64,000 nt of DNA from Diphasiastrum complanatum (Eukaryota; Streptophyta; Lycopodiopsida; Lycopodiales; Lycopodiaceae), in assembly GCA_029204225.1 (NCBI GenBank), contig CM055096.1, positions 39,406,461 through 39,470,460 of the forward strand, read 5' to 3'. Each line of letters starts with the position of its first letter. Position 1 is the first letter of the stretch. A model generated the notes under the pieces. That model was given only the letters and a program-made list of their open reading frames with translations. It made no database searches and was not told where the DNA came from. A program made the translations under genes and the position numbers. Below are positions 5,188 through 64,000 of this stretch, piece after piece.

Positions 5188-5745
5188 CTCCCCCTTAATG
5201 TGAATCCTAAAAAACCTTGTCTTCAGATTTAACATATCGTTAAATCTGAGATGTTGTTTCTTTGATAGAACTTTTGATAAGTAATCTGCTGCCATGTAGT
5301 TTGTTATGCAGAAAACCAATGCTACTTCCTTGTTGTGCACTTTCTCTCTAAGATAATGATACTTGATTTCGATATGTTTGCTTCGAGAGTGAAATCTCGG
5401 ATTGAGAGATAACACCATTGTGCTTTGATTGTCACAATAGATTGTTGTAGGAAGTGTTTGTGCAAGGTTGATGTCTGCAAGCAATTGCCTCTAGATCGTC
5501 TCTTTGGTTGCATTTGTGACAGCTATGTATTCGGATTTCACTGATGATAATGCAACTGAGGTCTGCTTCCAACTGTTCCATGAGATTGGGCCTTGGTTGT
5601 ATAAAAATACAAATCCAGAAGTTGATTTTCTGGTATCGACGTCTCCTGCCCAATCCGCATTTGTGTAGGCTTCAAGGATGTTGTTAGTTGTTGGATTTAC
5701 TCCTTCTACTCTCTTAAATTCCAATTTTAATCTGCCTCCATTCAT
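5182..5745 (-). pseudogene. copia RNase H, C-terminal part of pol (family B)
   Basis: Read on the minus strand, the segment has the copia RNase H signature: AYTNADWAGDVDTRKSTSG, then ALSSVKSEYIA, IYCDNQSTMVLS, RSKHIEIKYHYLRE and a terminal DYLSKVLSKKQH block. The first and second halves are in different frames, so there is at least one frameshift near 5480-5500. Nothing upstream of RNase H (RT, integrase, gag) is present: the element is broken at about 5750. RNase H would degrade the RNA strand of the RNA:DNA hybrid during reverse transcription. Confidence 0.9.
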
Positions 5746-6369
5746 GCTGCATATTTTTCTAACGTTTTCACGCAGTCTACATTTTTACTCACAAATTCAC
5801 ACATATGAAAAAAAGACGAATAAATCGCGACACTGTGTTCTTACACAGGTCATGGTGACAGGCAAAAAGGGGACACTACCTTACTAAATGCCAAAGGTAT
5901 AGATAAGGCACCCTGTAAATCTTATCCTATGGCCATTCATAAGAATGCACTTTTGCGTCATCACCAACGTTCACTTCAGTACTGGCTGACGTCGCACCCT
6001 TGTCACCTTCACCCCATGCAGTTGCGCTAACAGATTGGACAACGATTGCAGCCATCCACAATCTCCTACAAACAACACATTCACTCTGTACTTTTGCATC
6101 TTCACACATGTAATATTATGTATATATATATTGGATACCATCTGCGTATTTGATGATGATGATGATCAGATGATCAAGTGAGTTAAGAAGAGACTAAGAG
6201 AAGCATGTTTCATTCCTCATTACAGACAGAAATAAGCTTCGTAGGGCACACGGTTTCGTCCACTATTATATTGTGCTCTGCCACATTATTAACTTGTATA
6301 CATGACATTAGAGGAATGCCATGTAGGATATGCAAAAATATCAAAATAAATAAAACAATATTGTTTATA
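5746..6369. other. no recognisable gene
   Basis: AT-rich. The stretch 5765-5875 resembles the GACACTG / ACAGGCAAAAA units of the family-C LTR (59.99-60.19 kb), so part may be old LTR sequence. No coding region is supported. Confidence 0.4.
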
Positions 6370-6689
6370 TGCTTGCTCACACCACTCCCAAGGCCTCCCC
6401 AACTCCCAATGATCTAACCACAGTGTATATGGTCACAGTTAAGAACTGTTAACAGTTCGCAGTATAACTGAACTAAATTCAAAAATATTCCCTCCATTGG
6501 TTACGAAAAGGGCAATATTTTCACTGGATCTAGAATATGACCGCCATCTTCAGATTTGAATTAGGAAAAATTGCAAAATGTTTATATATGCATTCCTTCC
6601 ACGAGAATGGAAATATGAGCGCCAACTACCTATTGGAATGAAAAAATGAGCGGCATTTTCAAATTTGAATCAAGCATACAAGCATGGAG
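6370..6689 (+). repeat. 320-bp dispersed repeat, copy 1
   Basis: Nearly the same sequence, in the same orientation, occurs at 12816-13134. Both begin TGCTTGC and end at the TGGAG after CAAGCA, so the ends have a short inverted symmetry (TGCTTG/CAAGCA). The pair encloses the H3-Ulp1 and acidic-protein genes. They may be LTR-like, ends of a larger element, or two insertions of a small element. No flanking target duplication is evident. Confidence 0.85.
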
Positions 6690-6835
6690 CATTAGAGGAG
6701 TTCTCAATATCAAAGACCCTTTGTAAAGATACTTTTATTTTTTTTGTTTAGTTTCGATCGTCACCAGGCCCAATCAAAATACACAGATTTGAAATCTACG
6801 TAACGTACTTCAAATTAACTAAAAAATAAAAATGC
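6690..6835 (+). repeat. half copy of the inverted-repeat element found at 58488-58856
   Basis: It starts CATTAGAGGAGTT, continues with GACCCTTTGTAAAGATAC, and includes AAATCTACGTAACGTA. The order matches the right half of the complete element at 58488-58856 (opposite strand) and the half copy at 48861. The second half with the other terminal repeat is missing. Confidence 0.8.
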
Positions 6836-7153
6836 AATATAGAAAACTTTGAAATTTGTGTCCGGACAACATGTAGGTATCCCATTGGTTTCTTTTTCCT
6901 ACCCGACACGTGCTAATCTGCCCGACGTCAATATCTCAAGTTAAATTTACTTTACTATGTTGGTTAGTATAATGAAAGTTTCTAACTATACTAGTTACAG
7001 TTATAGAAATATGGTATGTACAGCTACATAAAATATGGTATACGCAGTAACTGTGACTATGTTCGCATTCACATTAGATTAAATGTGATACAAAAAATTA
7101 AAATCAAGTAACATATCAGAGAGATTTTTGACGCCCAAGCTTTGAAAATAGCA
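6836..7153. other. upstream region of the 7.15 kb gene
   Basis: AT-rich leader or promoter region. I see no diagnostic promoter element and no gene. Confidence 0.4.
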
Positions 7154-8351
7154 ATGGCCAGGAGACTCAGATTTACAATCGATTCTGTGATTCTTTACAA
7201 TGACAAAGATGAAGCTGATAACTGGAAGCCAACAAAATATAGGAGGAACTCATGGGTATTGCTGCATCCATCATCAAAGGGCAATTTTCGACAAAATAAA
7301 AGAGCAAAAATGACTTACAAATCTTATTGGAAAGCAAAAATTTTGGAGTTTAAGACTACCCTGGGAGGTCAATCGATATCAGAAGTCTTAGTGCAACATG
7401 TATATATGCATTCAGAAATCAAAGTACATGATATCAATCCTCATGATCATAAAAAATGTAATTGTAAGTATATCAAAACATATGCACTCTACAGCAATCA
7501 TAGGTGATTTCCTTTATTGATGCTCTTCAGATTATGATTTAAATGCTTCAACATTGTTTTTTTCTTTCAGATTTATATCCATCATGCATAAGTGAATGGG
7601 AGCCCACGCAATCACTTGCAGGAATATTAGACGTAATTCACTCTGATGTTGAAAAGCTACAATACAAAGGAAGAAGTCCAAAGGAACTTGCAGATTGTGG
7701 TATCTATTTTTATGAATCTTTATATATGCCACAAACAGATGGAGGTTTTGGCAAGCTCGAAGCAATTCCATTGCCTAGTTTTCAAAGTTATGAGTGGCCT
7801 ACTCCTGACAGCATTGTTTCTGAATCCTTGAGATGCAAGCTACTTATTGATATTAAAAATGCTATGAAGATAAGCACATGCTCCAAAATTGTTCACCTAA
7901 GTTGGTTTATCTCATTGCATACATTTGTTGATTTTTTCTCGAGTGCTAGTGTTCGTAGGACACCAACTTTATTTGTTTGCAAGGATTTATAGATGAGACT
8001 TTGTCAGATCTCATGGATCAAGGCTGGGATAGTAAAACAAATAATGACATAGAATGCAGGACTAAAAAGTCCTCAATGATCTTTCATTATCATATCGAAA
8101 AGCGAATGCTCAGTCTCACATTTAGCTATCAGAGATACAAGAAAATTGAAGGTACATGGCTATCACTGGATCAAGACTTTGAACTAAATGGTCACACAAA
8201 CCGAATGAAGATAAGCATTATCTACAATGAGGAATATTTGACTATGGTTGAGGTGGAAGAGCACTGGAAGCTTGATTTTATCATAACAGAGCTCATGCTA
8301 TTACAAACCAATCTACCAACATATTTCAGATTTATCATCAACGGAAGACTC
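7154..8351 (+). CDS. unidentified spliced gene in the H3-Ulp1 locus
   Basis: Three exons are suggested. Exon 1 is 7154-7463, with ATG at 7154 and donor GTAAGT. Exon 2 starts at 7571 after TTCTTTCAG and runs to roughly 7860-7900; the phases join to read CNYLYPSCISEW. Exon 3 runs from about 7984 to 8351 and ends at a GTAAGT donor. The product starts with a basic segment (MARRLRF), has CNYLYPSC, a patch with YFYESLYMPQTDGGF, and a C-terminal part with VEEHWKLDFIITELML. I recognise no domain. It converges on the H3-Ulp1 gene and lies between the 320-bp repeats, so it may belong to the same mobile unit. The downstream end of the gene was not found. Confidence 0.5.
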
Positions 8352-8698
8352 GTAAGTACTTTATGTTTATTGCCATTTCAAAATAGAATAAAATAATAGA
8401 AAATGTTTATTGCCATTTCAAAATAATACAAAATAATAGACAGGACCTGATAACGTGCTGCAAAGATCTACCTACAACAATCACCATTATGGGAGAACAA
8501 TAGTTTCAAATAAACTTTAGTAAAAATTTGTGTATACACCCTTTCATTCAATAAATGAAAGCCCAAGTTGGTCATCTGTACATGTATTTTGTGCTCCCAA
8601 ATTCATAAATTTGAGTAGCATTTGATACATCAATGTATATTTTTCTATGAAGTCTATACATGTATTTTTGTTCTATGTTATCTATATTTTTTCTGATC
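8352..8698. other. convergent intergenic region
   Basis: AT-rich sequence between the last visible exon of the 7.15 kb gene and the stop codon of the H3-Ulp1 gene. It contains a short duplication (GTTTATTGCCATTTCAAAAT at 8365 and again at 8406) and no further coding signal. Confidence 0.5.
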
Positions 8699-10375
8699 TT
8701 AATTTAGTACAACTACATCATCCTTTGCACCATCATCAATAACGGGAGGCTGAAGCCTTGCCCGAGCCAGTATACTCAGGATAATTTCTTGTCTAAATCT
8801 GTACACCTGGCTTGATGTGTACTCAGGAAGTGTAAACTGCAGAATAGAACATTTATGTATTAGTAATGGCCAATAACATCACCAGAATAGAAAACTAATC
8901 ATGATTCCAAAATAAGAATAAACATAATTTATTACCTTAGGAATATCAACATCTTGTTGAAGGATGAACCACTCAAAAAACAGTTTGGCATTGTACAGTG
9001 TGTACCACCCACAGCTGAATGAATCATTTTGATGGGGTGACTGCAAAATAATTCAACACACAAGAAATCAATTATAAAACAGAATGAATTAGACTGAAAA
9101 TATTTTATTAGAATATTGATTTCAAAATACTATTAAGAAAGAAGAGTTTACCTCCAAGCTGACGATCTGCCAGTCTACGGAATGGGCAACGTCTGTAGGA
9201 ATATATTTACTTAGATATGGAATGAATATATCTACATCCTTATGCGTATTTCTCACCGAATTCATCTTGACACAAGAACATTTAATAATATTATTTACAA
9301 ATCTCTTAATAGAGATCAGGTTTAAACTCCAGTGGTTACTACAAAATAAGATTGAAAGTACTTTAGCGGCAATTCTGAGAACTATTTAAATTGAAAATGT
9401 CAATGTTAATGCATAAAACATGAAGAAGCACTTAATATATCTTACTTGGTATGATAAGGAATGACCAGATACTTTGTTACTGGTGTGAATTCAGTTACTC
9501 AGCACCAACAACTCGTTTGATGAATCTCTTGCAATGTCAAATTGCAAGAGTGTCAGCCCGGACTCTATCACAGGATCACTGATAGAAGCCCGTCTGTCTT
9601 TGAGATCCAGACAATATGGAACTCTAAAATTAATACTAAAATCAAGTTCTTCTAGTCTAAAACAAAAAGGAGTACCAATTGTATCTATAGCATCCGATAT
9701 GTCTTTTTCAAATTTAAGATAATCATCTGAATCTATATAAATATAGAAATTGGGAGGAGAAGGAGGAGGAGGTGGAAGTGTAGTATCTACAACAATATTA
9801 GGAGTATCCAAAATAGAGGTAGCTATATTTATAGCATTATCAATAGCAGCATTATCTACAATGGATTCTGGGATAGGCTTCACTTTCTTAGGAGCACGCT
9901 TGGGGGTTGTCTGCTTCCTAGGACGCTTCGTAGGAAGATGAGTCCTATCTACAAGAGTTGGTCTAGGAGCAGCAGGCTGAGATACATGTAACCTACAGTA
10001 CCTATCCCTCATTCTGATCAGAAGCTGAAAATCCTTGGACATTATGGTAACCCTCTTGGTATGGATGGCAAGCAAAAAAGAATCCTTAAAAAAAAAGCTA
10101 ATATAATCTTCAACAACCTCCTGAAGGCACTGAAGAGCACTCGATGTGAATCTAACGTGCTGTCCGAGATCATTTCTTGTTATGTTCCGGACAGCACGGT
10201 AGAATGGAGCTCTTGGGATCAACATAGTTGTTGACCTCTGATACTTGCGTATCTCAGAGAGCCACCTGCTGCGCTTGCGCGTTCTAGGTCTAGAAGGGGG
10301 TGTGATGGCAACCGCAGGAGATGAGGATGAGCCAGGAGAGAAGAAGTCTGTCCTTGTCTGCTTTCTCCTATCCAT
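8699..10375 (-). CDS. histone H3-fold / Ulp1-type cysteine protease fusion (one frame break)
   Basis: Four minus-strand exons are inferred: 9446-10375, 9152-9338, 8936-9040, 8699-8836, all with GT-AG borders and matching phases. Residues about 38-126 follow histone H3 closely: LSEIRKYQRST, LIPRAPFYRAVR, VRFTSSALQCLQE, AIHTKRVTIMSKDFQLL. The usual H3 tail is replaced by a short Ser/Pro/Arg tail. A basic linker (RPRKQTTPKRAPKK) and a proline run follow. The rest matches the C48 (Ulp1/SENP) peptidase: ISDPVIESGLTLLQ, VIPYHTNNHWSLNLI (catalytic His), KMNSVRN where an Asp is expected, and SPHQNDSFSCGWYTLY (Gln and catalytic Cys). Ulp1 enzymes process or remove SUMO; the substrate here is unknown. 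Exon 1 hits TGA at 9491, but the domain resumes one frame over, so the copy has a 1-nt break or a sequence error. The product would be about 450 residues and presumably nuclear. Confidence 0.85.
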
Positions 10376-11206
10376 GGGCGTGAACTATGTGATAGTGGAC
10401 TTGTGCGTGAAGGTTAGGATGAGAAGGAAGGGATGATAAAGAACTCGTAGAGGACCGCTATGTATAGACAAAATGTACGGTATATCAACCTATGCGAGCC
10501 GATTATCAGAGAGAACGATTAGATTTGAGGAAAGACGCACAAGTGCGCTATGGGGTGACACGTAGGAAGAGGTATCGGACCTGTGCGCATGGAAGGTAGT
10601 AGGAGGAATTTTGATCGTGAAGGGCGTGCACAAATGCGATATGCGGAGCGAAAAAAAAAGTGAAAAAAATTCATCGAAATTTGTGATTTTATATCGAGGT
10701 TCACACGTGTGAAATAACGTCTTGTCACACATGTGGGAGTTGTACGGACAAATGCGAGTGCGACACGTGTCACTCTGTCACACTACACGTGTGGGATTTG
10801 TACGACCGAATGCGAGAGCGACACGTGTTTATAAGCACTCGAATGAACACGCGACACCTGTCTAGGTGTCATTTCACACGTGTATAAGTGTCATCTCACA
10901 CGTGCCTGTGCCTGTTGTCAAATTGAAAGTAGACACGTGTCATAAGTCCGTTGACCACACGTGAAAAAATTTAGTATAAATGGCACGGAAACCAAATAAA
11001 TTTTTACCTTTTGCGTTCTCAAAATTCGCGACATATCATTTTTGTGTGCGCTCATTTCTGTCTGTTAGCTTGCAAGTATACCTACTCGCGCACAAGTGCG
11101 ATATTTAGTATCTGTTTGTCGTACATATTCATCTTCTGCGCCATTTTGATTGTTAGTTTTGGTTCAGTTCTCTCGCGCGCACAAGTGTGATATTCACGCT
11201 ACTGCC
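10376..11206. promoter_or_regulatory. divergent promoter with eight G-boxes
   Basis: The 830 bp between the starts of the minus-strand H3-Ulp1 gene and the plus-strand acidic-protein gene hold eight CACGTG hexamers (starts 10704, 10764, 10786, 10822, 10877, 10898, 10934, 10958). Most sit in a longer ACACGTGT palindrome. A second recurrent motif of the form GCACAAGTGCGATAT occurs near 10537, 10625, 11090 and 11178. CACGTG is the plant G-box bound by bZIP and bHLH factors. Joint control of both genes is inferred. Confidence 0.7.
10975..10981 (+). promoter_or_regulatory. TATA box of the acidic-protein gene
   Basis: TATAAAT directly follows the G-box cluster and lies 226 bp upstream of the ATG at 11207. 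That spacing leaves a transcript leader of about 200 nt. Confidence 0.55.
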
Positions 11207-12320
11207 ATGGCCTCTTCCTCATCATCCTCACAAGAATCAGGCTTGAGTTCATTTCTGAGTGAATTTAGGATTATTGAAAATCTGGACTACTTCCACAGCC
11301 TATTCAAGCCTTATCTACATGTTTTCAAAATTGCACAACCAAATTCTGACATATTTTATGAACATTATATCAGATTCAAAGATATACTTAGCAAGCCTGT
11401 TTTCTCCATAGGTCAACTCCAGTACATGTATTATACTGATCTTTTTCATTTCTTTCCAGTCTTTAGACATAGATTGGATAGAATGTTCACCAAATTGTTT
11501 GATCTTTTCAAAAGTAGTTCTATGTGTCCGTTATGCAACAAGAAATGTCGATTGGTTGAATATCAGAGTAGTTTCTTACTTTTTCTTTTAGTTCAGATCC
11601 CAGATGATGATGAGTTTCCTGTTGCTGCCCTCCTTTTGCACGCTCCTCTGTTCAGTCAGCCATTAAGGATATCAATCACTTTCTTATCGACACTCCTGAT
11701 AAAGAAAGTGACTTCATTGATATAAATACTGACGTTCTCCGGGATTCTTTTATTGGCCAAAATACATCTGATGATGTATCCAAATCTATGGAGGATTTGA
11801 AATGTCTTTTCAATTTGTCTGTATATTATATTAATGATGATGTATATTTTACTATTGTTGATTTATGTAAATTTTTTGACTATCGTGAGGACGAGGTTCT
11901 ATGCTTATTATCCGGCACAATTTCCGAATTCTCCGACTTTGTAAATTTTGAGACAGATGACCTTGTTGCTGGTATTGATTTTGATGATGAGGAGGGTCTT
12001 ATGACCGGTGAAGAATGTTTGAATAATACTTTATCAAATATAGCTGAGGATGGGCGAGGCAGGCCATCCGATGAAGAATTCATGGCATTTCAATCCCAGA
12101 TGGGCTTCCCTCGTCCATCATTAATGCATTTCACTGATGATTCCACTTCAGTACGTGGTCATTATATTGATCATCCTGATCTGGTTGTTGTTGATGATGA
12201 AGAATGTGTAAGTGTTTGATCTTCCTTGCATTTGAATGTTTTCAATCACTAAATGTGTTTTTGCTAACATATTTCCTATTGCAGGATGCTCTCATAATAG
12301 ATGATTTTGCTGCGAGATGA
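11207..12320 (+). CDS. unidentified acidic protein gene, divergent to H3-Ulp1
   Basis: The ATG at 11207 (context CTGCCATGG) starts a serine run (MASSSSSSQESG) and a 120-residue helical, aromatic-rich region ending in a Cys motif (MCPLCNKKC) near 11530. An intron seems to lie between about 11570 and 11660; its exact borders are unclear, with CTCTGTTCAG as the likely acceptor. The second exon is strongly acidic (VAGIDFDDEEGL, VVVDDEEC). It ends at GTAAGT (12210), and a last exon after TTGCAG (12285) adds DALIIDDFAAR and a stop at about 12320. No known domain is recognised. The shared promoter region suggests a functional link with H3-Ulp1; histone-chaperone-like acidity is only a speculation. 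Confidence 0.55.
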
Positions 12321-12811
12321 GGTGGTTTCAGACAACACGCATCCTCATTCTAGAGGGACAGTGGACTGGGCCACTATCTTCGGCATTTCTTGAAGAGTGA
12401 GATTTGTATTGCTCATTCCAAGCTGAGCCCAGTCGGGAAGAGTCTTATAATGGCAGTTAAAGCTTTATCATTTTATTTATGAGGACATAAATTTGTTAAG
12501 ACAAATAAGATCTTTTTTGTCAAAAGATCTTATGTTTTGAACATTTTAGACTTTACTGATGGGAATGTTCCTTTAAGGAGCTCCCATTATTCATTGTATT
12601 CCACTTATATTGAGCTTAGTGGAAATAAGGATAATGCACATCTATTAGATGCATACGCTAGCAGAGAATTTCTTCATGACAATACTACCATAGAATTTGA
12701 TACAAGATCTGATGATGAATAGTTGACACTTTGTATAATACAATCAGTACATTTACACTGGGTATTGCTCCTCTCTTGTTCAATGAATTTGCAAAGCAAT
12801 TCTGAATATGT
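12258..12811 (+). repeat. left arm of a 554-bp inverted repeat
   Basis: It is repeated in opposite orientation at 15218-15770 with high identity. The arms enclose the broken transposase-like gene and one copy of the 320-bp repeat. The left arm begins inside the last intron of the acidic-protein gene and includes its final exon. Confidence 0.95.
12408..12723 (+). pseudogene. arm-encoded ORF, left copy, interrupted
   Basis: This is the counterpart of the open frame at 15306-15638. It has the same residues (CIAHSKLSPVG, MAVKALSFYL, ELSGNKDNAHLLDAYASREF) but a TGA interrupts it after SFYL at about 12479. I do not recognise the family. Confidence 0.6.
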
Positions 12812-12815
12812 CATT

Positions 12816-13134
12816 TGCTTGCCCACACCACTCCCAAGGCCTCCCCAACTCCCAATGATCTAACCACAGTGTCTATAGTGACAGTTAAGAACTGTTAACC
12901 GTTTGCAGTATAGCTTGACTAAACTCAAAAATATTCCCTCCATTGGTTACGAAAGGGGAATATTTTCACTGGATCTAGAATATGATCGCCATCCCGAAAT
13001 TCAAATCAGAAAAAATTGCAAAATGTTTACATATGCACTCCTTCCACGAGAATGGAAATATGAGCGCCAAGTACCTATTGGAATGAAAAAATGAGTGGCA
13101 TTTTCAAATTTGAATCAAGCATACAAGCATGGAG
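12816..13134 (+). repeat. 320-bp dispersed repeat, copy 2
   Basis: Direct copy of 6370-6689. It lies immediately inside the left inverted-repeat arm, only 4 bp from its end. Confidence 0.85.
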
Positions 13135-13239
13135 ATTGGATTGATCGCACATAGTATATAATATAATCAAAGATGAGCATTTTGTTTTGCTTCATAGAAT
13201 CTGGTCATAGTACTTTGATGCAACTGATTACTCTATTAT

Positions 13240-15126
13240 TTTTTTGATGATGACATTATATCATCTACATGTGGATATCCCTGTTGATTTGGCACCTTTG
13301 CAGAGAAGATGAGGCAAAGGAGTTCAAATATCTGCTCAAGATCGTTCTTGTTATAGGGCAGAAGAAAAGAAAAACATGGATTTGTGGACAGATGGAACAT
13401 TATATCCACAAGATCCAAGCACTTTGACACATCCCACATTCTCTTCAATAACTCATTTAGTTACATGGATATGCAATGGGCATAGTGGATTACTAAGATA
13501 TTGTGAAAGATTGCAAAACCATGGAAAACAATTTTATATGAATAAAGTTCACTTTTTAGAAGGTGAGTTAATTCGAATATCCTCTGATTGTCAGAATAGA
13601 GATTGTCATCTCCAAAAGACGTTAGAAGAAAATGAACAACTTAAAAAAAATAATGAATCATTACAAAAGATAGCAATCAATATCAAATCAGAACTAGAGC
13701 AAATGCAATCAGTCTTACAGTCTATTCATATTAAAAACTTACAATTACTGAAGGATGTGGATTTTGTAAAGAAGAAGGCTGAAAGTAAGAAGCAAAAGTG
13801 ACAAAGTTGCAAGGATATTCAAACGCTTTCAAAAAGAGGTTATCGAAATAGAAGGATCCGTGCATTCAAGTAAGCATATTCTAAATTTTGTAAGTTTTTC
13901 AATGACATTTGGATTTAATTTCAGCTATGGTGATATTTTGTTAACTATCTGTTTTTTTTGCAGATCTGCTACTAAAATAATATTAATACATTGTAAACTA
14001 AGTATGATTAATTCTTTGAACAGGTGCTGAAAGAGGATCATCATATATTATCATGGATATTCTCAAGGACATCTTATCCTAGGATCATCAAGGACCATAT
14101 GGATGGAGGATTTCTCAATGTTCCAGGAGTTGGAGACTTTGATGCTGAATGGCACTTAGCAGGTGATTTGAAAACATTGAAATGTATGTATAATGTCTCT
14201 CACGGTGCTACATCAAAACGCCCTTGTTTGTACTGCATGAAAATGACAAAAGATGTAGCTAGGAGTACATGAATTACTAGAGGATATGCAGATCCAAACT
14301 AAAAGCCTGTGCTGCCTATCCCCTTAAAAAATGTGCATGTTTGCACTTTTCATGCAGAAGTTAGATTAATAGAAAAGATCATTTATCTTCATATAGTTTT
14401 TGCTTGGAATACTAAGCCAACATCATTAGCAAAGGAAGCTATCTCTCGATTAGAAGATGTTTTATCAAAAGCAGGACTCCATAAAGGACATGTCAAAATT
14501 CAAAAAGATGAAAAGCTTTCAGGAAAGAATGGGAACATGCCAACTAAGACAAGCATAGGAGGAGCAAAAGCACGTCGTTTTCTATCAAATCATAATGGTA
14601 AGGCTTCTAATATTCAATACTCAATTTGGACAGATATTATTACTGCCACTCAGGACTTCGAAAAAGACGGCAAAACCAGAGTACTAAAAGTTAATGTATG
14701 GAAAAAGCTTGATAGTATGATTGCTATTTTAAGAAAAGAAAAATACTCTGATATTGATAAGAAAGCTGTCCAAAGGACTTGTGTCGAGTTTGTTAATGCA
14801 ATATCAAAAGCATGGGGAGAAGATCACATCACTCATTACATGGTTAGTATAAAATTTTCAAAATGCTTTCAAATTTTCATATATATTTAGATCTAAACAT
14901 AAGACTAACATTATGATTTTGACATATGTAGCACATACTCAGAGATCATACAACATTTTTTGCAAATACATATGAAAGCTTGAGTGTATGGTCATCACAA
15001 GGGTCACACTGGCAAGCACGAGCAGCATTTCATAGAAATACAAAACATGGAGGAAAAATGAAAAACGAAACTACATTTGTCAATTGTTTAAGTGGTTCTA
15101 TCGTAGAGTTCAGATTTGACATATAA
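13240..15126 (+). pseudogene. transposase-like gene, broken, unclassified family
   Basis: Parts in order are: an N-terminal block (LYHLHVDIPVDLAPLQRR, then TGA); LWTDGTLYPQDP and a coiled coil at 13376-13801; an intron to about 14020 (acceptor TTGAACAG); VPGVGDFDAEW, HLAGDLKTLKCMYNVS and CLYCMKMTKD (14024-14272); two in-frame stops; VHVCTFHAEVRLIEK and AWGEDHITHYM to a donor at about 14840; and a last exon from about 14931 (HILRDHTTFF, SLSVWSSQGSHWQA, NTKHGG) ending at TAA 15126. The pattern of a GDLK block with CxxC, then a GxxxITxYxH block and a SxQG block, reminds me of transposase-like proteins of poorly classified DNA transposons. I cannot assign a superfamily. A paralogue of the N-terminal part is at 3.3-4.5 kb. 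Confidence 0.6.
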
Positions 15127-15217
15127 CAAAGTCCACACAATACAACAAGTTTAGAAAAGCATGCAAGTTCATACAAGAAGAGAAAATTAGATGATTGCTG
15201 AGTAGAAGATCATCATA

Positions 15218-15770
15218 ACATGTTCAGAATTGCTTGCAAATTCATTGAACAAGAGAGGAGCAATACCCAATGTAAATGTATCGATTGTATTATACAAAGT
15301 GTCAACTATTCATCATCAGATCTTGTATCAGCTTCTATGGTAGTATTGTCATGAAGAAATTCTCTGCTAGCGTATGCATCTAATAGATGTGCATTATCCT
15401 TATTTCCACTAAGCTCAATATAAGTGGAATACAATGAATAATGGGAGCTCCTTAAAGGAACATTCCCATCAGTAAAGCCTAAAATGTTCAAAACATAAGA
15501 TCTTTTGAAAAAAAAGATCTTATTTGTCTTAACAAATTTATGTCCACATAAATAAAATGATAAAGCTTTAACTGCCATTATAAGACTCTCCCCGACTGGG
15601 CTCAGCTTGGAATGAGCAATACAGATCTCACTCTTCAAGAAATGCCGAAGATAGTGGCCCAGTCCACTGTCCCTCTAGAATGAGGATGCGTGTTGTCTGA
15701 AACCACCTCATCTCGCAGCAAAATCATCTATTATGAGAGCATCCTGCAATAGGAAATATGTTAGCAAAAA
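15218..15770 (-). repeat. right arm of the 554-bp inverted repeat
   Basis: Inverted copy of 12258-12811. Its outer end coincides exactly with the first base of the 3.3-kb dispersed repeat (15771). The arm was therefore probably cut or targeted there. Confidence 0.95.
15306..15638 (-). CDS. arm-encoded ORF, intact copy, unknown function
   Basis: A 110-codon open frame on the right arm, uninterrupted, unlike its left-arm twin. The residues include CIAHSKLSPVGESLIMA, ALSFYLCGHKFVKTNK and ASREFLHDNTTIE, ending TRSDDE. The frame continues upstream of the first ATG-like codon (GLGHYLRHFLK), so this is likely the last exon of a larger gene. No family is recognised. Its retention as an open frame within an inverted repeat could be chance. 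Confidence 0.4.
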   Translation of the reverse strand: MKSEICIAHSKLSPVGESLIMAVKALSFYLCGHKFVKTNKIFFFKRSYVLNILGFTDGNVPLRSSHYSLYSTYIELSGNKDNAHLLDAYASREFLHDNTTIEADTRSDDE

Positions 15771-25070: not shown

Positions 25071-25547
25071 TCATGAATCAGGGGGCGGCGATGGGCCGTG
25101 TGCTGGTGGGCGATCTGTTGGGACGTCGTGGTTTACTGTGGAGTCTGGAGGACTACCTACGCTGTCCTCCTGACGAAGCTTTTCGGAAGAAATAGCCAGC
25201 ACAGGAGGAGGATGATGATGGGACGACTCCTCTGGCTTCCTAAGGAATGGAAGCAATAATTTTAGAAAACTTGCATCTCTGGCGAGGAGAGATGGACGAT
25301 CTCGGGCACTTCGATAGTACTGTTTTAACATTCGTATGCAGTACCAAAAGCAGCAAACAAATAATGTTGCACCAGTGATCAGGAAGAGACCCCAAAATGC
25401 GTTGAGGCCTAGCTGAACGGGGCCTGTTTGACGGCAAACAGGTACACCAAGCCACTTGTCATGAAGTCGCTGCAATTCCCCATTTTCTGCTAGAGTCAAT
25501 ATTGCTGTGGACATGTCCGCAGTCAGCTGCGAACCTGTCGGAAAAGC
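25071..25547 (-). CDS. glutamate receptor-like channel, exon 5 (S2 end, M4, cytosolic tail)
   Basis: The exon starts after GGTGCAG (acceptor at 25548) in phase 0, so exon 4's GWGF continues as AFPTGSQLTADMSTAIL, the standard end of the plant GLR S2 lobe. ENGELQRLHDKWLG follows, then the fourth transmembrane segment (GLNAFWGLFLITGATLF, VCCFWYCIRM). The tail of about 90 residues is rich in Ser, Pro and His, ending with TGA at 25071-25073. GLRs are ligand-gated, mainly calcium-permeable cation channels of the plasma membrane or endomembranes. There are no breaks in this exon, consistent with a functional gene. Confidence 0.95.
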   Translation of the reverse strand, partial: AFPTGSQLTADMSTAILTLAENGELQRLHDKWLGVPVCRQTGPVQLGLNAFWGLFLITGATLFVCCFWYCIRMLKQYYRSARDRPSLLARDASFLKLLLPFLRKPEESSHHHPPPVLAISSEKLRQEDSVGSPPDSTVNHDVPTDRPPAHGPSPPPDS

Positions 25548-26440
25548 CTGCACCATGTCAACTGTTCTCAGCAACCTACAAATGTGTTTCGGAGATAGAT
25601 AAGTAGAGACAGTTGTATTTAACTTCACTTCAGCTGAGATCATATGCAGAATTTGAAAAGAAAATTTGCTTTAGACATCATGTTTTTCAATATCACCGAC
25701 CCCAAAATTGCAAGAGACGTTTCTGAAATCTATTTTTCCTAAGACGCTTGTCTGTTTAGGTTTTTTTTGGCTTCAGGCACGTACATAATTCATAGGTCAG
25801 TGTATGCTCTCTTGTAAAGAACGGGAAGAGTTTAATTTCTGGATAATCATGCGCTCCTCATAGTGTAATGATTTCATCACCAAGTTGGCTAAAAATTCTC
25901 AAATAGGCCTGAATATGCTTGATTAGTTGCCTTCTCTGTTTACAGATATGAATCTATGAGCCACAATGAATAGTATCTAGATAATGTCGCTATTGTGCAT
26001 CTTAATGTCGCACTTGATTAGAGCTTCAATGTTGTGCTCTACTTCCTGCAAAATTTAAAAAGCATATTATTTCACTTTAGGATTGTGTGCAAAAGGTAGC
26101 AAGGTGCCCTTATGGGAAACTATGTTAAATACATATTTCTAGTAGTTTTGACACATTTAATTTCTGTATTTACTTTGCTCTATAGAAGCTTCTATATATA
26201 TTTTAAATGTTTTAATTTGGAAGTGAATCTTGATTCTACCCCTTTCCATCAAATAAAATGGTAACCATACTACAGGCAAGCTCAGAAAAGGGTCGAGAGA
26301 TTCTGCAACAATAATAGAAGCTCAACTGAGAGCATGATCTACCTTAACTAATGTGGAGATCTTCAAAAGTCTCAACCACCACACAAAAAATTGCAATTGT
26401 TCAAGATCATGTGATTGTTTACTATATGTAAGTGATCCCA

Positions 26441-26509
<69 letters not shown>

Positions 26510-26748
26510 AAATAACTAGGTCATTGATCTGTTGTGTAACTTCTGGATCCCCTTGAGAAATCTTCAAAAGACATCAGTATTCCAGGACGGGGACTTCAGT
26601 TTAGGCGCAGTTTAATGCCGAATGCACACAATTAGGAGCTAATAATCCATACCAGTTTTAGATTGTTAGATATGTGAGCGGCTGCAAGCATTCAAAATAA
26701 AAAATACAGAAGCTCAGGTTACTAGCTCAGCTGGTTCGGACAACTTAC
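25548..26748 (-). other. GLR intron 4 (about 1.2 kb)
   Basis: GTAAGT donor after GGATTT and GTGCAG acceptor. It carries the GA microsatellite at 26447-26508. Nothing else is recognised. Confidence 0.9.
26447..26508. repeat. (GA)n microsatellite in GLR intron 4
   Basis: About 30 uninterrupted AG units on the plus strand (CT on the transcript). Confidence 0.98.
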
Positions 26749-27152
26749 AAATCCCCAACCACTTCTTTTGAACTCTTCACCAGCGATGATTGACTGGCAG
26801 TCTGATGATAGAAACAATTGGACATATGCAAGCTCGTCTACAATAGCCCCGACCCCTCCTGCGTTGGGACCCTTACGAAGAGCATCCGCATAGCTTGCAA
26901 AACTATCTAAGGGTACAAGTCTTTCTTTCCGAACATGTAACTGCAGTAAGTAATCCTCAACAAAAGATCCTGCTTGATAACCGATGGGGACAGAGCTTGC
27001 AACCAGCGCCTCAATTCCTTGGATGGTAGGCATGAGTTGTTGCAGTGTTAGAATTGATGTAAGGCTTGCAGTGTAACTGGACGTGATTATCAGGACGACA
27101 AACAGCCAGATGAGAAGCACAGTCTTTCCCAGAGTACTTTTTACATCCTGCC
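26749..27152 (-). CDS. glutamate receptor-like channel, exon 4 (M3 and S2)
   Basis: The exon begins after ATTGCAG (27153) or, 5 bp later, after GGGCAG, and encodes [17 protein letters not shown]. It covers the third transmembrane segment with the gating motif [11 protein letters not shown] (equivalent to animal SYTANLAAF), then the S2 lobe ([40 protein letters not shown]). The donor GTAAGT is at 26748. Phase analysis shows it cannot join exon 3 directly: exon 3 ends two bases into a codon, and neither acceptor restores the frame. The P-loop/M2 block that normally precedes M3 is also missing. An extra small exon is therefore required between the two. Confidence 0.95.
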
Positions 27153-27845
27153 CTGCAATATTTGCAATGAAGGGTTCCGATTCGTCAGTCATCATAACAA
27201 GGGCTAAATTAGTGACAACACACATGGATAATCCATTATTGCAGCATTCATGAAAAACATGAGTGCTTATTAAAGCTTGAATGTTACCGTAAGAATCATG
27301 TTAGCAATTTGGACACTGATGCTACTGGATGCTTGGCATATACATATTACATACCAATCATCGAGGACATTCTCCATGTTGAGGGTTTAACTCCATTGTA
27401 TGTATCAATTAGGTTATAGGCTAGTCATAGATATCATAAGCTCTATTGGACATCTCATGCTTTAACCCTAATATAGTGTATGTGAAACGTGTATGTGTGT
27501 GTAGTAGGTATATAAAGAGCAAGTTACAAGACAAATATTATGCACTCGGACATCCATTTAGACCATGCATTTGCACTTTAATTATATGTCATTTCAAGTA
27601 TATAGTTGTGCTTTTGGAAACTTTCATTCATTATATTACCTTTGCTGAAGACATTTATTGGCTACTAGAGGTGTGACACAAACCCTATCCCTCATGGGAC
27701 TATAAGCAGGCATGTTGGCCTCATTACTGGGGTCAACTGAGTCGCTGACGGATTGAAGTCTTGCTTGATCACTTAGCTTCAAAATAGCTTAGCTTATTCA
27801 TATTTAACTTAGATATGGCCTATCATGGATTGGTGCTTAGAAACC

Positions 27846-62147: not shown

Positions 62148-62400
62148 TGCACTTTCTAGTTATGAGTAGCTGCATTGTAACATTATGCATGGGCAGCATC
62201 ATGAAGTCTGGTAGCGTCAAAGAGGATGATGGCCTACAGTATGTTCCTTTCAACTAAATTCAGGTGGAATTGTTTGGTTTGACCTAAAGTTAACAGTAGT
62301 TCAAGAAAAAATTTGGAACAGTGAACTGAAATCAAAGAATCTAACTTTAAGATTGTTTTTTAACCAGCAATGTTCAGTAGCCTTTACATGAAGAACATAC
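62148..62400 (-). other. GLR intron 2 (253 bp)
   Basis: GTATGT donor after AACAAA, GTGCAG acceptor. A compact intron, in contrast with the next one. Confidence 0.9.
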
Positions 62401-63761
62401 TTTGTTAGCGATTTGATCAATAAGGTCATCGTAATTCGGTGGTGAGCTTCCATTCCCATAAGAGACTAACGTGTAAAGGACAGAATAGGGAAAGTATTTG
62501 AGAGCAGCCTGGAAAACATCAATGCAGAACCCTTGAAAGCTAGTGGTGTTGTCTGCACCAACATTGATATCGACGAATTCCTTGCAGTCTGTCTTATCTG
62601 GTACACCAATCAATAAAGGCTTTCCATTATTTGGAATATCGCGAGGGACCTTCACTGTACCACCAGGCCAGATAACAGTATCTAAGTCTTGCGAATTGTT
62701 CTGAGCTATTTGTATTGTGCCTCGACTAGCTAAGTCTGAGGCATTTTTGGTAAACCCAGTAGCATTACTCCAGTATCCAACAGTTCGAAGTCCCCTTCCC
62801 AACATATTCACAATTTCAATCGATGAACCCTCGAGATCTCCTCTGTTATCCAACTTTATTTTGCCAGTCACTCCAGTAAACTCTGTATCAAGAATGCATT
62901 GTAGAAGGAAAAATCCGTTTTGTGAAACATTGAGTTTAGCAAGCTCTGAATTCCCACCTGCGTCAGCGGGAAATACATTTGAAGGGTGAAAAGGAAATGA
63001 TCGATTCTGACTAAAACATTTGTCAAGTGCATGGGCTATCAACCAGATAGTGTCATATGCATACAATCCATATACTGTGATATGGGTGGTATCCCCCGTT
63101 CCAGCAGTTTCCTTCTTTGCTATTTGCTTCCATTCATTCATAAAGGTTTGCAACTTCTTAGAATCCGGTATGAATGTGCGCGTTCCAATCAAGCCTTGGG
63201 TTGCCTTGACAAACTCATCATCATAAGAAATCTGGTCCAAAACACTAGAGAGTGCCTCAGTTACAATCCACACATAGCCTGTACCCGTCATTTTCAAAGA
63301 ATGAGCCACATCAAATAAAATACGTCCCATGTTTGGTTGCATATGAACAACGAAGATTCTTGATCCTAGTTGAGCTAATTGAATCAAAGCACGGTGTATG
63401 CCATCTCTACCAATAGCGGGATCCAAACCCATGCGATTTACAATTGTGGCTCTTACACCAACAAGAGCATTACTCAGGGCACATATGCCACTTGCACCAA
63501 AATCGTCATCAGAATACAAAGCCACAACTTGCCTCCAACCAAAAAACCCAACAACACCTGCAATAGCTTCCATCTGGACACGGTCACTACGTGATAATCG
63601 TACAAAGTAAGGGTATTGATATTCTGAGAGGGTTGGATCTGTAGCTGAAAATGACACAAGTGGGACATGAATGGCAGCACCCATATGGGCTACAAAATGT
63701 GAGACCATAGATGTTTGTGGCCCAGCGATTGCAACAACAGGTTCACTCATGAGATCCTTAG
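62401..63761 (-). CDS. glutamate receptor-like channel, exon 2 (amino-terminal domain, start of S1)
   Basis: The exon starts after TTCATCTTGCAG (63762) in phase 1 and encodes about 453 residues. It opens KDLMSEPVVAIAGPQTSMVSH, the ANF-receptor / periplasmic-binding-like domain of plant GLRs. Landmarks are VPLVSFSATDPTLSEYQYP, WRQVVALYSDDDFG, GYVWIVTEAL, HITVYGLYAYDTIW, FTGVTGKIKLDNRGD and the VGYWSNATG motif. The S1 lobe begins with KPLLIGVPDKTDCKEFVD and GFCIDVFQAALKYFPY. The exon is open throughout. The signal-peptide exon lies beyond the window edge. Clade cannot be assigned by eye. The gene's 5' end is therefore partial here. Confidence 0.95.
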
Positions 63762-64000
63762 CTGCAAGATGAACAACATAAGAGTTAGCTTCAAACAAAC
63801 ATGACAATTACATGAACTATTTAGAAAATATTTCTTTTTTGTGAAACTTTCATGGTAGAGGTGTACTAAAAAACATTCGCACTAATAAAAAAGAATAGAA
63901 TGTTGATTAAGGCTAGCAAGCTACAAAGTAGGAACCCATTTAATTGAACAAAGCATTTTTTTTATAGGGATCGGGCAATATACCTATCTATTATCTAGGA
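63762..64000 (-). other. GLR intron 1, partial
   Basis: Sequence upstream of exon 2 with a T-rich tract before the acceptor. It continues past the window. Confidence 0.8.

Follow-up and report, generated by a model that had tools for sequence, protein, structure and literature searches.

Does a plant genome hold a gene that joins a histone H3 fold to a protease of the kind that removes small ubiquitin-like modifier (SUMO), and to whom does such a gene belong? The question is raised by a 64,000-nt stretch of the Diphasiastrum complanatum genome (assembly GCA_029204225.1, contig CM055096.1, positions 39,406,461 to 39,470,460; hereafter the window), in which a first-pass annotation made from the letters alone had read a single four-exon gene encoding an H3 fold, a basic linker and a Ulp1/SENP-type (C48) cysteine protease. 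Here we report that this H3-Ulp1 fusion exists as a true gene family and is no chance reading, and that it belongs, as an accessory gene, to a four-gene DNA transposon present in many copies in a large plant genome. Its identification as a transposon-encoded H3-C48 fusion is very nearly certain; what the fusion does for the element is a matter of graded likelihood, weighed below.

The fusion gene and its copies

In the window, an open reading frame (ORF) of 294 codons begins on the minus strand with the ATG at 10375 (Table 1). The three introns have GT-AG borders (9445/9339, 9151/9041 and 8935/8837), as had been annotated, and the exons 3′ of exon 1 carry His-Trp, Gln and SCGW motifs on the same strand. 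The consistent phases and intact reading frame that had also been proposed do not hold for this copy: a TGA at 9493-9491 ends the exon 1 frame and the protease part lies in a different frame. An alignment of 30 rows, the window copy among them, attributes this to a 56-nt deletion at 9494/9493, before the protease part. Exon 1 accordingly measures 930 nt in the window copy and 983 nt without the deletion, 3 extra nt at another site of the window copy accounting for the rest.

The host genome was scanned as 1.74 Gb in 5176 contigs, about 23 of them large, with contig numbers that apparently follow size. All copy numbers are to be read as minima, since each search scored the best 112-150 of 5628-9491 first-look candidates; among the rows are also some near-identical copies from small contigs, which may represent the other haplotype. 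A histone profile gave at least 153 matches (best 150 of 6325 candidates scored). Thirteen are canonical H3 loci scoring near 164 bits, eight of which were read and encode intact H3; the others, roughly 140, are divergent. With window exon 1 as the query, at least 133 copies of the same family (family 1) were found among the best of 9284 candidates, including the window's own; the other 132 scored copies are 81-92% identical to window exon 1. The matched part contains a stop in 108 of the 133 scored rows and none in 25.

An uninterrupted fusion of ~470 residues, with GT-AG borders at all three introns, is present in 8 of the 30 aligned rows (L012, L013, L015, L025, L026, L033, L034 and L036). 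L012 and L013 encode the same protein and L033 and L034 nearly the same, which leaves six distinct intact fusions. In the intact copies, exon 1 is an unbroken frame of 331 residues that runs from the histone fold through the N-terminal part of the protease, and many copies share it; the two parts are joined via a basic, proline-rich linker. The spliced L036 protein, the sole product scanned, matched both PF00125 (E 1e-26) and PF02902 Peptidase_C48 (E 1.7e-10; 41.5 bits, cut-off 20.7) above the cut-offs. The profile check proposed for the spliced product thus came out positive for both domains when run on an intact copy, and the C48 assignment is confirmed by this match together with Ulp1-type matches among solved structures (below).

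The fusion architecture is conserved in two divergent families. When a provisional rice CENH3 core served as the query, the 13 canonical H3 loci were followed by at least 137 further H3-like matches (best 150 of 5628 candidates). Eighteen loci were sampled: five fell in a second family (L066, L067, L070, L071 and L073), ten in a third, and one each in a family-3 sub-family (L069), a fourth family (L074) and family 1 (L072). Family-2 proteins begin, where the start is readable, with MARTKQTAR or close to it, the canonical H3 tail; a family-2 exon 1 search scored at least 112 candidates of 9491. L070 and L071 have an open exon 1 and match PF00125 as they stand (E 5e-21 and 1e-24). Both carry pieces with His, K-M-N-S, QQ and SCGW, the Trp after His being present in L070 only, and L070 matches the C48 model at 29.5 bits (E 8.3e-07) when a frameshift is read through. 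Exon borders, compared by eye, are the same in families 1 and 2, and the C48 parts are 27-31% identical, with K-M-N-S, QQ and SCGW common to both. The tie between the two is clear because the family-1 fusion protein can be aligned to family-2 locus DNA in two stretches, residues 1-378 (E 9e-39) and residues 392-421 (E 1e-07). Family 3 (L059-L065, L068, L075, L076 and L079, with the sub-family L069) has a long polyproline front and the H3 fold near its C-terminal end; most rows stop after the fold, with no protease seen.

In the copy tables of families 1 and 2, TAG is common among the premature stops. C-to-T change of CAG at methylated CHG sites would produce such stops, which suggests that these copies have been silenced.

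Histone and protease parts

Window exon 1 scored 99.5 bits against the core-histone profile (cut-off 26.4). Among the best 60 of 179 solved-structure matches, all were H3 or CENP-A, and not H4, H2A or H2B, one being described merely as a 'histone domain-containing protein'; Schizosaccharomyces pombe Cnp1 and histone H3.1 were nearest, so the annotated H3 fold stands. Across the fold, identity is 41-49% between any two of the four families and 45-55% between a family and host H3. In the example rows of each family, P66, R69, R83, H113, K115, R116, V117, T118, D123, L126 and R129 are retained; of these, R69, R83, H113, K115, R116, T118, D123 and R129 are what we take to be nucleosome-contact and H3-H3 interface residues of H3.

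Pro63 and Ala65 occur in the example rows of families 1-3, as in the provisional rice CENH3 row. In a small tree, whose plant and human CENH3 rows are likewise provisional, the transposon histones and four CENP-A/CENH3 rows stand apart from canonical H3 (branch values 96/89), and the transposon histones share one side of a branch with plant CENH3 (67/91). Family 1 is 54% identical to host H3 versus 51-53% to the provisional rice CENH3, and its loop 1 is one residue longer, which is not the case in families 2-4. The histone part is thus best described, on its sequence, as a divergent H3 with some CENH3-like features. In a protein-database search that needs shared 5-residue words, and that distant relatives can therefore escape, exon 1 had a sole match, a Bulinus cse4 (E 1e-5), and the C48 part had nothing at E 0.01.

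Against solved structures, the family-1 C48 part alone matched an Ulp1-like SUMO protease (E 0.0019) and Ulp1 (E 0.0048). A profile that combined three rows of family 1 with two of family 2, the stop being written as X and one row ending at its frameshift, matched SENP2 best (E 1.2e-05), followed by the Ulp1-like SUMO protease (4.9e-04) and Ulp1 (5.4e-04). The likeness to SENP2 and Ulp1 thus extends over the catalytic part, and the active-site His, Gln and Cys are present in families 1 and 2, in line with the annotated HW, SCGW and Gln-before-Cys motifs. The third triad residue departs from that picture: Asn, within an invariant MNS, may take the place where the usual Asp is expected, in a protein that is also fused to a histone. 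By eye, this Asn lines up with the DSL/DSM of Ulp1 and SENP2 once the gap is shifted; the HMMER alignments place the gap and the Asp elsewhere. The conserved Asn may be the likeliest counterpart of the Asp. Asn serves in papain-type triads. Catalysis by the predicted protease is uncertain.

The transposon that carries the gene

The first-pass suggestion that the gene might be element-encoded is borne out by its at least 133 copies and by one of them, copy A (contig 5, L039 and L040), which lies within a 9245-bp unit ending in 35-bp terminal inverted repeats (TIRs) that are 97% alike. The unit carries a transposase-like gene, ORF3 on the other strand, H3-Ulp1 and ORF4. With TIRs and a transposase-like gene, it has the marks of a cut-and-paste DNA transposon. 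A 27-nt TIR core, with up to five errors allowed, occurred in 12 of the 45 sequences scanned. Copies A, C7, C2 and C5:54 have it at both ends (the left end of C5:54 being diverged), and no target-site duplication was seen by eye in the flanks of these four. Copy number, TIRs and the linked transposase-like gene rule out a host gene.

The transposase-like protein, joined mostly from copy A, has no Pfam match above cut-off. It has 25 protein-database relatives of 410-900 residues at E 0.01 or better; the best has 900 residues and 46% identity (E 1.7e-94), and the sole named one, from the fern Adiantum nelumboides, matches 27% of the query. Ten relatives scanned with Pfam showed no transposase model; in one (P0026), a region beyond the shared part matched DUF7794. 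All of the 23 (of 25) relatives that were aligned have invariant acidic and His motifs in common. These motifs, read by eye, and the place of the gene in the element indicate a probable transposase, which we set in no named family. Searches of viral contigs and of prokaryote genomes gave no relative of this protein at the sensitivity used; a viral or bacterial origin is disfavoured on that ground, the search having covered the transposase-like gene and not the H3-Ulp1 protein itself.

The other genes recur with the histone. ORF4 has no Pfam match above cut-off, and a homologue adjoins the histone gene in family 2 (45-46% identity) and family 3 (30-35%); ORF3 has a homologue in the family-2 element (30% identity, E 6e-24). 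On contig 6, a family-2 copy is surrounded by the same four genes, with ORF3 and the C-terminal part of the transposase inverted. The 10 kb examined around the family-3 locus L079 gave no transposase match.

An array of CACGTG sites separates the H3-Ulp1 gene from ORF3. ACACGTG occurs 22 times in the window versus 2.8 expected, and none of 100 shuffles reached as many. Copies A and B have the array at the corresponding position, and so does the family-2 element, again with eight sites; the family-2 DNA around it cannot be aligned to family 1 (best E 0.02). The 600 bp before the ATG hold at least one site in 30 of 30 family-1 loci and four or more in 29. No array was found in 10 kb at L079.

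The element in the window is rearranged: its right part covers 6690-12814, and its left part, turned round, covers 12813-15770. In the window the 537-bp repeats flank the inverted transposase block; the corresponding region of the family-2 element also contains an inverted block. From these two inversions, the segment with the transposase block may be able to flip.

Copies are dispersed. Placed copies of families 1 and 2 each occupy 22 of the 23 large contigs, and the mean scaled distance between pairs is 0.305 for family 1 and 0.310 for family 2, against 0.333 for a uniform spread; simulations gave values as low in 183 and 317 of 2000 runs, respectively. The test used 111 of 133 family-1 rows (18 on small contigs and four on contigs 2 and 5, three of these beside another copy, were left out) and 89 of 120 family-2 rows (leaving out 19 on small contigs, seven further pieces of a copy and five duplicate-like neighbours), with approximate sizes for contigs 15 and 16. 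Clustering of copies, examined as a sign of centromere targeting, was thus not seen, and the near-uniform spread would speak against strict targeting. The largest contig, C1 (101.6 Mb), holds none of the 111 family-1 and one of the 89 family-2 placed copies, where several are expected by length.

Table 1 Features of the H3-Ulp1 element, in window coordinates
Feature	Position	Strand	Remarks
Fragment of the other end of the same element kind, abutting the TIR	6312..6689	+	94% to copy A 2089-2466
Element TIR, end downstream of the H3-Ulp1 gene, CATTAGAGGAGTTCTCAATATCAAAGACCC...	6690..6722	.	27-nt core found in other copies
ORF4, protein without Pfam match	7112..8393	+	pieces 7112-7504, 7543-7989, 7959-8393
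H3-Ulp1 fusion gene, window copy	8699..10375	-	four exons 10375-9446, 9338-9152, 9040-8936, 8836-8699; broken by 56-nt deletion
Ulp1/SENP-type (C48) segments, exons 1-3	8936..9480	-	HW starting exon 2; Gln..SCGW in exon 3
56-nt deletion junction, shifting the frame of the window copy	9493..9494	-	alignment with 29 other rows
Histone H3 fold, exon 1 residues 21-123	10007..10315	-	PF00125 E 2e-28; PDB Cnp1 E 3e-21, H3.1 E 1.5e-20
Eight CACGTG sites (mostly ACACGTGT) between H3-Ulp1 gene and ORF3	10704..10963	.	260 bp
ORF3, placed divergently to H3-Ulp1	11207..12216	+	overlapping frames 11207-11722, 11614-12216
Arm 1 of 537-bp inverted repeat around inverted transposase block	12258..12794	.	98%
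Transposase-like gene, several exons	13376..15126	+	without about 700 nt found in copy A
Arm 2 of 537-bp inverted repeat	15234..15770	.	98%

Proposed role of the fusion and its alternatives

The function we favour, by analogy, is that of a chromatin-borne deSUMOylase or SUMO tether that would shield the element from silencing. The histone part would pair with host H4 and enter, or dock on, nucleosomes at the element, perhaps steered there by the CACGTG array via another element protein or a host protein. The protease part would remove SUMO, or hold SUMO-modified silencing factors, at the element, which would thereby escape silencing and could be expressed. We favour this role because of three analogies: the Ulp1-carrying genes of VANDAL transposons, the part of SENP6 in CENP-A maintenance and that of SUMO in KNL2-CENH3 binding. 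We put the whole explanation, a transposon accessory gene encoding an H3-C48 fusion that acts against silencing at the element, at a probability of about one half; the anti-silencing mechanism, taken by itself, is a tentative proposal that falls somewhat short of even odds. A wider reading is possible and rather doubtful, namely a class of plant transposons that would put private H3 variants on their own chromatin, with a built-in deSUMOylase erasing the silencing signal and the G-box-like CACGTG array as a self mark. To the same doubtful reading belongs the idea that lineages with private H3 variants may be long-lived, one of them keeping the ARTKQTAR tail.

Ulp1 domains are encoded by VANDAL/KIU elements, which bring about hypomethylation of their relatives (PMC13317346). 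VANDAL Mutator-like elements (MULEs) with KIU/VANC (Kaonashi) resemble the present element in being plant DNA transposons with an accessory Ulp1-type gene and, by analogy, in having short motifs in non-coding DNA; the role proposed for H3-Ulp1 would be analogous in purpose to that of the VANC/KIU anti-silencing genes. VANDALs differ in being non-TIR MULEs, whereas the element here has TIRs and no Pfam match to a MULE transposase, and the word 'histone' does not occur in the main text of the review (PMC13317346). SENP6 maintains CENP-A chromatin (PMC6981222), and in Arabidopsis the binding of KNL2 to CENH3 is under SUMO control (PMC12903445). The fusion would therefore join in one protein an H3/CENP-A-type histone and a SENP-type deSUMOylase, which are known to act together at chromatin (PMC6981222, PMC12903445).

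The nearest precedent for selfish DNA with an H3 of its own is that of virus-encoded histones, including the single H3s of some nucleocytoplasmic large DNA viruses and of xenomavirus (PMC9145170). Those are virus genes and, in the part of the article covered (PMC9145170), have no protease fusion; the H3 described here is a transposon gene product fused to C48. CENP-A/CENH3, with Cnp1 the best structure match among those listed, offers a further likeness as a divergent H3 with a variable tail and Pro/Ala near 63-65; the present protein differs in being fused to C48, in being no closer to it in identity than to H3 and in having unclustered copies. Among the top-ranked open-access papers (at most 20 per search, subscription journals and preprints being outside the coverage), we found no precedent for a transposon-encoded core histone or for an H3-protease fusion. 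The existence of the gene suggests that a mobile element is able to supply a chromatin component of its own. Silencing of mobile elements acts through chromatin, and a histone variant combined with a SUMO protease would, if the proposal is true, be a direct weapon against it; core histones could then become mobile-element genes outside viruses, and the role of SUMO in silencing and in histone-variant stability would be testable with a single gene.

Several observations weigh against this anti-silencing role. The catalytic Cys is kept in 6 of the 8 intact family-1 rows and is Tyr in L033 and L034, and the aligned rows lack an Asp at the position where the catalytic one would be expected. Two family-2 copies were read beyond exon 1 and each has a lesion in exon 2, a frameshift in L070 and a stop replacing the Trp of HW in L071; as they stand they score 15.3 and 16.8 bits with the C48 model (E 0.018 and 0.006), below the cut-off of 20.7. 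The family-3 copy L079, beside an ORF4 homologue, has an H3 without C48. Pairwise ratios of nonsynonymous to synonymous rates (dN/dS) are 0.52 for H3, 0.36 for C48 and 1.12 for the linker among 15 family-1 copies, and 0.66, 0.42 and 1.23 among five intact ones; dN in family 1 (0.040) is close to the intron divergence (0.044). Recent purifying selection is not shown, because nonsynonymous to synonymous counts do not differ between variants shared by three or more of the 15 copies (34:18) and singletons (164:74; p 0.62). The apparent constraint rests on the deep comparison of families and not on recent copies.

How far do other explanations account for the same data? One holds that the histone is a captured CENH3 and that the fusion acts at centromeres, where it would steer insertion, or would compete with host CENH3 and alter SUMO-controlled loading. 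The two tree groupings with provisional CENH3 rows, the shared Pro63 and Ala65 and the ties of deSUMOylation to CENP-A and CENH3 in the SENP6 and KNL2 work (PMC6981222, PMC12903445) would fit, yet family 1 is no less identical to host H3 than to the provisional rice CENH3, the longer loop 1 is confined to family 1, family 2 starts with the canonical H3 tail, and the 111 and 89 placed copies are spread along the chromosomes. We consider this unlikely. Alternatively, the protein could be structural, its histone packaging or marking the transposon DNA or the transposition complex and its C48 fold serving as a SUMO-binding tether and no working protease. The conserved Asn in place of Asp, the Cys lost in two of eight intact rows, the family-3 proteins without C48 and the retention of what we take to be DNA-contact residues all speak for such a protein; the His, QQ and SCGW kept across families about 30% identical are what a working site predicts, and Asn works in papain-type triads. 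This explanation, too, we hold to be improbable.

Transposons often capture gene fragments, and pieces of host genes picked up by chance, functionless for the element, would explain the stops in 108 of 133 rows, the damage in both family-2 copies and the non-significant comparison of shared and singleton variants. Such passengers would hardly be found as four H3 families, 41-49% identical, with the same residues at eleven checked positions, or keep the fusion and its exon borders in two deep families with six distinct uninterrupted copies among 30 rows, and we regard passenger capture as very unlikely. The notion of an assembly artefact, or of two separate neighbouring genes, draws on the frameshift between the parts, which is seen in the window copy alone; it is refuted, with next to no probability left, by the intact exon 1 that spans both parts on many contigs with no terminator between them.

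Elsewhere in the window, minus-strand segments at 62374-63807, 26722-27300 and 25071-25670 look by eye like exons of one candidate glutamate-receptor-like gene, set apart by about 35 kb that contains coding pieces of long terminal repeat (LTR) retrotransposons.

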